In this document: piece after piece, positions 36,553-52,971 of the stretch | How positions within the stretch are numbered: position 1 is the first letter of the stretch | Layout of the letters: every line of letters starts with the position of its first letter | Assembly: GCF_003944795.1 (NCBI RefSeq) | Contig: NZ_RWBG01000003.1 | Span: 248,001-312,000, forward strand | DNA length: 64,000 nucleotides | Direction: 5' to 3' | Source of the DNA: Mangrovimonas spongiae | Lineage (GTDB): Bacteria > Bacteroidota > Bacteroidia > Flavobacteriales > Flavobacteriaceae | Program-made: the position numbers and the translations under genes | Notes under the pieces: model-generated | The model's database searches: none | Told to the model about the DNA's origin: nothing | What the model saw: only the letters and a program-made list of their open reading frames with translations

Positions 36553-37803
36553 TAGGTTAAATGCTTGTTTTATGGTGTCGACATAATCAAGTTTTTCCCA
36601 GGTAAAAAGTTCAACATCTAAGTTGATGCTTTCTCCGTTGGGTTGTGTGAAGGTTTTTTTAACCGTTTCATTTTTTCTTCCCATATGGCCATAAGCTGCT
36701 GTTTCGCTGTACATAGGTTGTCTTAAGTTTAACCTTTCCTCAATAGCTGCCGGACGCATATCAAAAATTTCAGAAACTTTTTGAGCTATCTCGCCGTCTG
36801 TTAAGTTTACTTTATTAGTTCCGTAAGTATCAACAAAAATACCCATAGGCTCCACAACACCAATGGCATAACTAACTTGTACTAAAATTTCATCGCAAAG
36901 GCCGGCTGCAACAAGGTTTTTAGCAATATGTCTTGTGGCATAGGCTGCGCTTCTATCTACTTTACTAGGATCTTTTCCAGAAAAAGCACCGCCGCCATGA
37001 GCGCCTTTTCCACCATAAGTGTCTACAATAATCTTGCGTCCTGTTAAGCCTGTGTCTCCATGAGGCCCACCAATAACAAACTTTCCAGTTGGGTTAATAT
37101 GATATTTAATATCGTCGTTAAATAACGCTTGTATGTGTTTTGGAAGTTTAGCTATAACCCGTGGGATTAAAATGGTTTTAATGTCTTCACGAATTTTACT
37201 TAGCATAGCATCGTCGTTGTTAAAATCATCATGCTGAGTAGAAACAACAATGGCATCTATACGTTGTGGTATGTTGTCATTGCTGTATTCAATTGTGACC
37301 TGTGCTTTCGAGTCAGGGCGTAAGTAAGTAATCTCTTTATTCTCTCTTCGTAAAGCGGCTAATTCTTTTAAAATAGTATGCGATAAATCTAATGCTAATG
37401 GCATGTAGTTATCAGTTTCTTTGGTAGCATAACCAAACATCATACCTTGATCTCCTGCACCTTGCTCTTCTTTGTTGTTACGATCAACACCACGGTTTAT
37501 ATCGTCTGATTGTTCATGAATAGCCGAGAGTACACCGCAAGAGTTCCCGTCAAACATATATTCGCCTTTAGTATAACCTATTTTATTTATAACGTCTCTA
37601 GCTATTTGCTGAACGTCTAAATAAGTGTTCGATTTTACTTCACCAGCTAAAATAACTTGACCAGTGGTAACTAGAGTTTCGCAGGCTACTTTAGAATCTT
37701 TATCAAAAGCAAGAAAGTTGTCGATTAGGGCGTCGCTTATTTGATCTGCTATTTTATCTGGGTGTCCTTCAGAAACACTTTCAGATGTGAATAAATATGG
37801 CAT
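36550..37803 (-). CDS. metK: S-adenosylmethionine synthetase
   Basis: MetK makes SAM from methionine and ATP. The 417 residues show [32 protein letters not shown], the [20 protein letters not shown] and [18 protein letters not shown] motifs with the catalytic residues. It is transcribed alone. The leader of about 117 nt contains a SAM-II-like aptamer and a competing hairpin (see the riboswitch entry), so it is likely repressed when SAM is high. Confidence 0.97.
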
Positions 37804-37825
37804 CTTAAAGTTTTTTTATGTTTTT

Positions 37826-37914
37826 AACTGAATTGCAAAAGGAAACTAAAGGAGTAAAGGTTACTGCTTTAGCATTTTTTTTATGAGGTTGCAATCAGTT
37901 CAAATCTTTCCTCA
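37826..37914 (-). ncRNA. SAM-II-like riboswitch with anti-aptamer hairpin in the metK leader
   Basis: Read on the minus strand, TGAGG (37914-37910) pairs with CCTCA (37888-37884). The loop holds AAAGATTTGAACTGATTGCAA, followed after an A-rich linker by GCTAAAG and CAGT. This is the order of the SAM-II class: stem, GAUUUA-type stretch, pseudoknot strand, AUUGCAA, stem, A-rich linker, GCUAAA, second pseudoknot strand. ACTG pairs with CAGT here where the best-known metX example pairs ACC with GGU. Downstream, TTGCAAtTCAGTT (37838-37826) is complementary to AACTGATTGCAA, and CTTTAG to CTAAAG, so aptamer and hairpin are mutually exclusive. No poly-U terminator follows. Confidence 0.8.
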
Positions 37915-37928
37915 AAAAATTATCGAAG

Positions 37929-37936
37929 CAAAAGTA
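37929..37936 (-). promoter_or_regulatory. -7 element of the metK promoter
   Basis: TACTTTTG on the minus strand matches TAnnTTTG exactly. Transcription would start just before the TGAGG that opens the riboswitch. Confidence 0.6.
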
Positions 37937-37980: not shown

Positions 37981-38011
37981 AAAAAAGAAAACCCTGAAGG
38001 TTACTTCAGGG
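37981..38011 (-). terminator. Intrinsic terminator after amt
   Basis: CCCTGAAG pairs with CTTCAGGG around 4 bases (37992-38011). On the minus strand it is followed by a T-rich run at 37981-37990. It isolates amt from metK. Confidence 0.85.
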
Positions 38012-38048
38012 CTTTCAATCAACATAAAAAAACTAATCAAGGGCATGA

Positions 38049-39326
38049 TTAATCATGAATTTCTCTTTGTCGTTTTCCAGGATACGCTATCGTGCCGTGT
38101 TCTGAAAGGTCTAATCCTTGTATTTCTTCTTCTTTAGATACTCGAAGTCCCATCGTTTTTTTAAGAATATAAAAGAAAATAAATGCAATAATTGACGCCC
38201 ATAAGGCATATGATAACACTCCTATAGCCTGGGAACTAAGTTGGGCGATGCTTCCGCTGTTAAATAACCCAATAGCTTTATCGCCATCTACTCCCCAAAG
38301 TCCTATAACGAGTGTTCCCCATGCACCAGCAACGCCATGAACTGAGACAGCCCCAACAGCATCATCAATTTTAAGTTTACTTTCTATAAATTCCATAGAA
38401 AACACCACAAGAATACCGCCAATTAGGCCAGCTAATACAGCGCCGCCTTCAGTCATATTGCCACATCCTGCTGTAATACTTACTAGCCCAGCTAAAGCAC
38501 CATTAAGGGTCATGTCTAGATTGGGTTTTCCATCTTTAAGCCATGTTGTAAAAAGAGCTCCTAATGCTCCAGCACTAGCCGATAAGTTGGTAACCAAAAT
38601 AACCATTGATGCGCTAACAGCATCATTACCACCCCAAGCAAGTTGTGAGCCGCCATTAAAGCCAAACCACCCTAGCCAAAGTATAAAAACACCTAATGTA
38701 GCTAAAAGCTTGTTGTGTCCAGGAATTATAACAGGCTTGCCGTTAATGTATTTTCCCATTCGCGGACCAACAATACAGGCGCCTACCAAAGCAGCCCATC
38801 CACCAACAGAGTGAACAATAGAAGATCCTGCAAAATCAATAAAAGGTGTGTCAAGATTGGCTAACCAGCCATTGCTGTTCCACTGCCAACCGCCAGCTAT
38901 GGGGTAAATAAGAGCTGTCATAACTAAGGAAAATACAATATAAGTGGAGTATTTAGTTCTGCCAGCAATAGCACCAGAAACTATAGTCGCTGCTGTAGCA
39001 CAAAAAACTGTTTGAAAAAATAAATCAGCAGGGCCTTGATTAAACATAAAACCGTCCCAACCTATCCAACCATTAGAAGAGCCATACATTAGTGAATATC
39101 CTATTAACCAATAAACAAGAGAGCCTACGGCAATATCTAATATGTTTTTCATAGCAATGTTAACAACATTTTTTGATCGCGTCATGCCAGATTCTACTAA
39201 AGTGAAACCAGACTGCATGAAAAATACAAGAATACCAGAAATAAGAATCCAGAGCATTCCCATGTCGCCTTTTGTTGCTAAAATATCTTGATTTATTAAT
39301 AATGATGAAAAGATAGTAGGGTACAT
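38049..39326 (-). CDS. amt: Ammonium transporter
   Basis: This is an Amt/Mep/Rh channel of 425 residues with 11-12 hydrophobic segments. The twin pore histidines appear in SSIVHSVGGWAALVGA and AVSVHGVAGAWGTL, and WLGWFGFNGGS is the family signature. The N-terminus (MYPTIFSSLLIN...) is not a clear signal peptide. No glnB/glnK gene lies next to it in the window; the upstream region is a 467-bp AT-rich spacer. Confidence 0.95.
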   Translation of the reverse strand: MYPTIFSSLLINQDILATKGDMGMLWILISGILVFFMQSGFTLVESGMTRSKNVVNIAMKNILDIAVGSLVYWLIGYSLMYGSSNGWIGWDGFMFNQGPADLFFQTVFCATAATIVSGAIAGRTKYSTYIVFSLVMTALIYPIAGGWQWNSNGWLANLDTPFIDFAGSSIVHSVGGWAALVGACIVGPRMGKYINGKPVIIPGHNKLLATLGVFILWLGWFGFNGGSQLAWGGNDAVSASMVILVTNLSASAGALGALFTTWLKDGKPNLDMTLNGALAGLVSITAGCGNMTEGGAVLAGLIGGILVVFSMEFIESKLKIDDAVGAVSVHGVAGAWGTLVIGLWGVDGDKAIGLFNSGSIAQLSSQAIGVLSYALWASIIAFIFFYILKKTMGLRVSKEEEIQGLDLSEHGTIAYPGKRQREIHD

Positions 39327-52718: not shown

Positions 52719-52818
52719 TTTTTTTAAGAGATTTTATAAAAAAAATCAAAATTATTTGGAATTGTAAACTTTCTGTTTGAATATTTGCACTCACAAAAGT
52801 TCAAAAATTTATTGTATT

Positions 52819-52932
52819 GTTATCAAGAAAGGTGGAGGGAATAGACCCTGCGAAACCTTAGCAACCCTTTGTTTACAAAGAAGGTGCTACATTCTACAAT
52901 TTGAATTTTAAAAAATCAAATAGATAGATAAC
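52819..52932 (+). ncRNA. SAM-I (S-box) riboswitch
   Basis: The basal stem is GTTATC (52819-52824) with GATAAC (52927-52932). Between them are AAGAAAGGTGGAGGGAATAG, CCCTGCGAAACC, TTAGCAACC and AAGGTGCTA followed by ATTC, which match the S-box consensus (AGGTGGAGGGA, GAAACC, GCAACC, AAGGTGCTAA). It would bind SAM and reduce expression of the downstream methionine gene. Confidence 0.92.
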
Positions 52933-52971
52933 CCAAGTAAGACTTCCCAGAAAAACACATTTCTTTTTAAC

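Follow-up and report, generated by a model that had tools for sequence, protein, structure and literature searches.

The metK gene of Mangrovimonas spongiae raises the question of how a riboswitch might control an mRNA that carries neither a terminator nor a Shine-Dalgarno sequence ahead of its start codon. The gene lies in a 64,000-nt stretch of genomic DNA, here called the window. A preliminary description of its leader had proposed a SAM-II-type riboswitch whose aptamer competes with a downstream anti-aptamer that captures both pseudoknot strands. The strands named in that description are all found on the minus strand of the leader, and the features discussed below are collected in Table 1. 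Directly before the metK ATG stand the letters AAAAAAACTTTAAG, in which nothing resembles a Shine-Dalgarno sequence, as had been claimed.

Table 1. Features of the metK locus in the window.
Feature	Position	Strand	Basis
metK, SAM synthetase, 417 aa	36550..37803	minus	Open reading frame; Pfam PF00438, PF02772, PF02773
metK ATG	37801..37803	minus	Sequence
Presumed promoter -7 element, TACTTTTG	37929..37936	minus	TAnn(n)TTTG type
SAM-II long-loop aptamer (RF01726)	37859..37919	minus	72.5 bits versus cut-off 44
P1 5' strand, TGAGG	37910..37914	minus	Sequence; RF01726 alignment
P1 3' strand, CCTCA	37884..37888	minus	Sequence; RF01726 alignment
Aptamer strand AACTGATTGCAA, holding the 5' pseudoknot strand and the target of arm D	37889..37900	minus	Sequence
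Strand A, GCTAAAGCAGT, holding the 3' pseudoknot strand CAGT and the target of arm B	37863..37873	minus	Sequence
Anti-aptamer hairpin of 12 pairs, formed by strand A and arm B	37845..37873	minus	Minimum free energy (MFE) fold; pairing excess in 127 leaders
Arm B, CTCCTTTAG	37846..37854	minus	In the modelled SAM-bound state can pair with CTGAAGG (37766..37772, codons 11-13)
CTTTAG	37846..37851	minus	Sequence
Arm D, TTGCAATTCAGTT, long-range anti-aptamer strand	37826..37838	minus	MFE fold; conservation and covariation in relatives
A-rich translation initiation region without Shine-Dalgarno sequence	37804..37825	minus	Sequence
Start-codon hairpin, ACTTTaAGATG / CATCTgAAAGT	37777..37811	minus	Both modelled states (SAM-free and SAM-bound)

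The sensor was identified by covariance-model search. The leader matches the SAM-II long-loop family, RF01726, over the full length of the model (1 to 60). The expectation of a SAM-II-type riboswitch before a Bacteroidota metK gene was thus borne out, but with a different model from the one that had been named: RF00521, the SAM-II family of Alphaproteobacteria, reached 18.5 bits, below its cut-off of 36. SAM-V (RF01826) likewise stayed below its cut-off of 41, at 19.5 bits. The complementary strands ACTG and CAGT had been read as a compensatory change in this gene. They agree with the RF01726 consensus, which contains GACU.G and CAGU, so this pairing is a property of the subclass and not peculiar to the window gene. 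Among the family loci that were read, metK lies downstream of the RF01726 aptamer in 129/133. The aptamer of the metK leader is a plain member of RF01726, and it is predicted to bind SAM.

A scan of the window with all Rfam models returned two matches above cut-off, RF01726 and RF00162, both SAM riboswitches. The RF00162 match is a SAM-I riboswitch (73.5 bits; 52817 to 52934, plus strand) preceding the gene for a 1,131-aa fusion protein, in which an alpha/beta hydrolase domain, probably MetX-like, is joined to aspartokinase and homoserine dehydrogenase. A second SAM-I riboswitch lies just outside the window (G000:C3:313124-313227). At E ≤ 0.001, 199 genomes of the family comprised 157 with SAM-I, 187 with SAM-II long loop and 151 with both; six had SAM-I without SAM-II. 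In the passages of Barrick and Breaker 2007 on this subject, both classes had been found together in no single species (PMC2258182). At three loci the two riboswitches adjoin back to back, one on each strand and separated by fewer than 150 bases (G103:C1:2736104-2736395, G198:C1:1569158-1569467 and G008:C15:69083-69391). Some RF01726 aptamers of the family, including those of L037, L087 and L119, carry extra hairpin-like inserts of variable sequence between CCTC and AATGCTAAA, where the aptamer has its A-rich linker. The aptamer pattern had no match in viral contigs.

Where transcription starts bears on how the leader could work. Upstream of the aptamer stands TACTTTTG, which we take to be the -7 element of a promoter of the Bacteroidota type. 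Among the 127 metK leaders of the family set, 124 have a TAnn(n)TTTG element no more than 45 nt before P1, against 18.2 expected from shuffles, at a median distance of 13 nt. This position suggests that the aptamer lies at the 5' end of the RNA and that the metK transcript probably begins just upstream of it. We looked in the window metK leader for a terminator-like site, meaning a stem with a T run after it, and detected none, in agreement with the preliminary description; the longest T run in the linker between aptamer and start codon has four bases. Intrinsic termination was rejected as the output of the switch, since the leader has no stem with a T run and the only terminator-like site nearby lies 5' of the promoter element. 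That site, a hairpin with a T run (37987 to 38016, minus strand), is found 3' of an ammonium transporter gene (38049 to 39326).

Folding of the leader alone reproduced the second of the two proposed structures. In the MFE fold (-19.1 kcal/mol), AACTGATTGCAA pairs with TTGCAATTCAGTT through 12 pairs and one bulged U, and this helix encloses the 12-pair hairpin on GCTAAAGCAGT. The nested fold with P1 forced and the pseudoknot strands unpaired reached -5.5 kcal/mol, a value in which neither the pseudoknot nor SAM is counted. Because the MFE fold occupies both pseudoknot strands, aptamer and anti-aptamer exclude each other. Both the capture of the two strands and their mutual exclusion were therefore recovered as first described. 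In the window leader by itself, however, neither arm is clearly beyond chance: the long-range arm D gave p = 0.114 and the hairpin arm B p = 0.050, and in whole-leader folding (z = -1.78) 12 of 200 shuffles were at least equally stable. The case for the anti-aptamer consequently depends on relatives.

We sampled genomes at four taxonomic levels and found RF01726 at E ≤ 0.001 in 4/4 of the genus, 187/199 of the family, 138/196 of the order and 26/198 of the phylum. The family set consists of 133 loci, mostly the better-scoring RF01726 matches of the 187 genomes. From these, 127 metK leaders were kept, after four loci that do not precede metK (L019, L112, L113 and L132) and two that failed the pattern for strand A or P1 (L095 and L109) had been left out. 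Their linkers, measured from aptamer to start codon, are 41 to 111 nt long. A second set of 60 leaders comprises 58 that belong to the order but not to the Flavobacteriaceae, and two that represent another family of the same class. It is free of L142, which belongs to the window's family, of further loci from that family and of L189, which was unparsed; the position of strand A was set by hand in L139 and L160, and the class-level leaders L208 and L212, also unparsed, are absent from its counts. Leaders of one clade are not independent, so all counts given here exceed the number of evolutionary events.

Arm D recurs throughout these sets. Compared with dinucleotide shuffles, its pairing was significant at p ≤ 0.05 in 82/127 leaders of the Flavobacteriaceae (p ≤ 0.01 in 44/127) and in 37/60 of the second set (p ≤ 0.01 in 16/60). 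Fourteen named records picked by pattern yielded 13 readable leaders, at least three of which repeat earlier loci, and arm D reached p ≤ 0.05 in 7/13. Two class-level leaders, L214 and L215, gave p = 0.075 and p = 0.50. When each linker was set against its own aptamer and against those of other leaders, the own pairing beat the mean of the others in 101/127 leaders of the family and 51/60 of the second set. Within Mangrovimonas, 3/4 leaders share a strand of the TTGCA or CTGCA type that ends in CAGTT, and the fourth (L004) has it in another register; the second stem is thus kept in close relatives. Arm B left a weaker trace. Over the 127 leaders, strand A reached a pairing value of 0.608 with the 32 nt that follow it, where shuffles gave 0.414; p ≤ 0.05 was attained in 32/127 leaders, and in just 22/127 by a duplex test.

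Four loci of the family have the aptamer in front of other genes. At L019, which precedes a gene of Cys/Met metabolism (Pfam PF01053), 0/500 shuffles gave an arm D as good. The other three are second copies of the aptamer, all above the RF01726 cut-off, in genomes G083, G054 and G007 (L112, L132 at 151-211 and L113 at 151-209); they precede queF (L112, PF14489; L132 by likeness) or a DUF6580 gene (L113). Arm D reached p = 0.04 in L132, whose downstream gene resembles the queF gene of L112 by eye, and was not clear in L112 (p = 0.34) or L113 (p = 0.72). Its presence before the non-metK genes of L019 and L132 suggests a closer tie of arm D to the switch than to metK. For the second copies, a changed ligand or a link to queuosine is possible.

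We also looked at whether the linker changes together with its own aptamer. The alignment was anchored on the letters CAAAT alone, with flanks disregarded, which retained 86 of 184 leaders. At offsets -1 and -2 from this anchor, covariation was significant (p = 0.0005 each). Contrasts between close relatives favoured own over swapped pairs, by 14 to 6 at -1 (n = 11) and by 43 to 24 at -2 (n = 30). Offset -3 was significant in the first set and lost significance in the joined set (p = 0.13; 18 own against 15 swapped pairs), and the position 3' of ATTTG did not covary (p = 0.54). P1 appears to be a third partner. Letters of the CCAC type occur in the linkers of 12/39 leaders with GTGG, where 4.2 were expected, and of 9/136 leaders with GAGG, where 10.9 were expected (GTGG versus GAGG, Fisher 2e-4); this motif was picked after the leaders had been inspected, and 175/184 leaders could be classed. 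Rare letters of individual aptamers are also mirrored in the linker (L064, L123 and L131; L175 and L187). Arm D is therefore conserved and covaries with its own aptamer.

These comparisons bear on the possibility that the aptamer is a SAM switch whose downstream complementarity in the window is a matter of chance or a decayed relic, with the true output elsewhere. The single-leader statistics given above fit such a relic, and no output is predicted in the genus. Both arms, however, recur with altered sequence in the congeneric leaders L002 and L003, and arm D is present in most tested leaders of the family and order, which makes a relic improbable. As judged from these relatives, the assignment of a sensor and an anti-aptamer to the window gene is well supported.

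We then modelled the output of the switch as the cost of opening the region from -18 to +12 around the AUG, comparing the free leader with a SAM-bound model in which the aptamer was simply omitted, and used shuffled linkers as the control. In 57 leaders from sister families, the cost in the bound minus the free state was +2.95 kcal/mol, against 0.24 in shuffles (positive in 48/57; p = 8e-9). Both halves of the effect were significant, the start being more open when free and more closed when bound. The rise was seen in 17/17 leaders of family f7, 13/13 of f5, 8/10 of f11, 4/4 of f8, 2/2 of f14 and 1/2 of f2, as well as in single leaders of f3, f10 and f13; it was absent from f15 (0/4) and f9 (0/2). 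In the bound model of the sister families, the linker covers the AUG at 0.487, against 0.263 in shuffles, and in L140, L149, L158, L161 and L186 the AUG is spanned by a helix of the freed strand.

In the window's own family the same comparison was weak. The cost differed by +0.74 kcal/mol, against 0.02 in shuffles (positive in 89/127 leaders; p = 2e-4), an effect that stems from the free state (p = 0.005) rather than the bound one (p = 0.42); it fell by more than 1 kcal/mol on binding in 22/127. Cover of the AUG in the bound model was not beyond that expected from shuffles (0.269 versus 0.265), and pairs between linker and start rose slightly (6.7 versus 5.7, p = 0.02). Another accessibility setting gave a free minus bound difference above shuffles in 102/127 leaders, again mostly through the free state, and an earlier test of the bound model (-15 to +6) ranked at or below 0.1 in 17/127 and at or above 0.9 in 6. 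Masking was not predicted in the genus. With 45 coding bases included, the cost for L001 to L004 was 0.2 to 2.3 kcal/mol lower in the SAM-bound model than in the free leader, and linker pairing with the AUG was at most 0.08 in both states.

More specific forms of pairing with the start or the coding sequence were also considered. The linker forms a clear stem with the bases immediately 5' of the ATG in a small-genome clade (about 13 leaders), in L102 and L119, and in L172, L174 and L176. Such a stem, taken over the final 16 nt ahead of the ATG, was rejected as a general rule, with p ≤ 0.05 in just 17/127 and 7/57 leaders; a cognate test in which the own partner was better in 12/13 is biased, because its rows had been chosen for the linker-ATG stem. 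Pairing between linker and coding sequence in 30-nt windows was rejected as well, being weak and no more marked at the start than at +90 to 120 and +150 to 180. Within the genus, the pairing of the window's arm B with CTGAAGG stayed within chance (p = 0.17), as did the best linker-coding pairing in L002 to L004 (p = 0.21, 0.19 and 0.97). Both strands of the start-codon hairpin recur in L003 and are absent from L002. Linker nucleotides shared between pairing with the aptamer and pairing with the start overlapped no more than in rolled controls.

The lower modelled opening cost of the genus when SAM is bound could be taken to mean that SAM switches the window metK gene on and that the SAM-free fold is the closed one. 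The differences in L001 to L003 are small and change sign with the length of coding sequence and the region included; L004 is negative throughout. Activation of SAM synthetase by its own product would also run contrary to the usual logic of feedback, and we regard this direction as highly improbable.

The lack of strong predicted masking of the AUG, which is more pronounced in the window's genus than in the family as a whole, is also what one would expect if sensor and anti-aptamer work as proposed but SAM frees a C-rich, G-poor strand (arms B and D) for termination by Rho or attack by an RNase. Excluding its last 15 nt, the linker has 24% C and 11% G, and C exceeds G in 124/127 leaders. This composition is not independent evidence for Rho, because pairing with the G-rich aptamer strand in any case demands C-rich arms. 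Riboswitches linked to Rho are described for other bacteria in the passages of PMC9373788 on this point. The clear start masking predicted in the sister families runs contrary to such an output, which we consider unlikely. For the window's genus, masking of translation, action of Rho or a nuclease on the freed C-rich strand, or some other output is possible.

Control by a short upstream open reading frame was a further candidate, in which the AUG within AAAAAAUGCUAAAGCAGUAA of the aptamer (M-L-K-Q-stop in the window) would be translated only without SAM. An ATG in an A-rich context stands at that site in 115/127 and 52/57 leaders. The frames that follow vary from 3 to 40 codons, however, and 31/167 have no observed stop before metK; the AUG may be kept for structure, because it is part of the RF01726 consensus. 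Such an upstream frame is very unlikely to be what controls metK.

The reading that we prefer is that the RF01726 riboswitch and its conserved two-arm anti-aptamer form a translational OFF switch of metK, to which we give a probability of roughly 0.6. Transcription would begin a short way upstream of the aptamer. At low SAM, arm B would pair with GCTAAAGCAGT while arm D took up the 5' side of the aptamer; this would dismantle the aptamer, leave the A-rich start region open and allow metK to be translated. Were SAM to bind early, the aptamer would stay closed and arms B and D would be released; in many Flavobacteriales the released strand could then pair with the start region or the AUG and repress translation. 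The parts of this scheme differ in their footing. Computation supplied the identity of the aptamer, the two arms, the finding that arm D is conserved and covaries, and the prediction that sister families mask the start. We infer the binding of SAM, the OFF direction, the co-transcriptional choice between the folds and a like output in the window leader, for which masking of the AUG is not predicted.

Much of this logic is familiar. Translational riboswitches with an anti-aptamer and a sequestered ribosome-binding site generally alternate between two mutually exclusive folds, one hiding the start site and one exposing it. What differs here is the predicted masked element of the sister families, an A-rich region together with the AUG. 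The preliminary description had suggested an unusual mechanism in this gene; the sister families point instead to an ordinary one, with the start masked when SAM is bound, that acts on an uncommon target.

The sensor itself is already known. Weinberg et al. 2010 list RF01726 for Bacteroidetes and marine sequences (PMC2864571, main-text passages), and their aptamer is the same as that of the window leader. Their main-text passages on RF01726 are without an expression platform, and the two-arm anti-aptamer with its predicted exchange at the start site is what the present analysis adds. In Sinorhizobium meliloti, according to the passages of PMC9373788 on its SAM-II switches, the metA Shine-Dalgarno sequence is sequestered on SAM binding and a terminator is predicted for metZ. 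These RF00521 switches resemble the window leader in their SAM-II fold and in that SAM binding is proposed to lower expression. The window leader differs from both in having neither a Shine-Dalgarno sequence nor a terminator, and in the 127 leaders the start codon stands a whole linker (41 to 111 nt) beyond the aptamer. Bacteroidota are described as lacking Shine-Dalgarno sequences, and initiation in Flavobacterium johnsoniae as tuned by mRNA structure and by adenines at -3, -6, -12 and -13, in the sections of PMC6847099 that treat initiation. Our search of the literature on SAM-II and Bacteroidota riboswitches, with subscription papers and supplements outside its scope, found no account of this platform.

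More tentatively, and at somewhat less than even odds, the platform may extend across the order Flavobacteriales as a single evolving linker with a double antisense role, complementary to the SAM-II aptamer as well as to the AUG with its A-rich start region, and handed over by SAM from the first to the second. Flavobacteriaceae such as Mangrovimonas would then keep the anti-aptamer half, with the start-masking half replaced by another output. Riboswitch control in Bacteroidota, whose mRNAs are without Shine-Dalgarno sequences, is little described in the literature that we searched. The conserved and covarying anti-aptamer present in most tested leaders provides, on a gene of central metabolism, a defined platform open to mutation, and one that can be recognized as a natural riboswitch platform by matching each linker to its own aptamer. 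If the proposed switch is correct, it would represent translational riboswitch control without any Shine-Dalgarno sequence.
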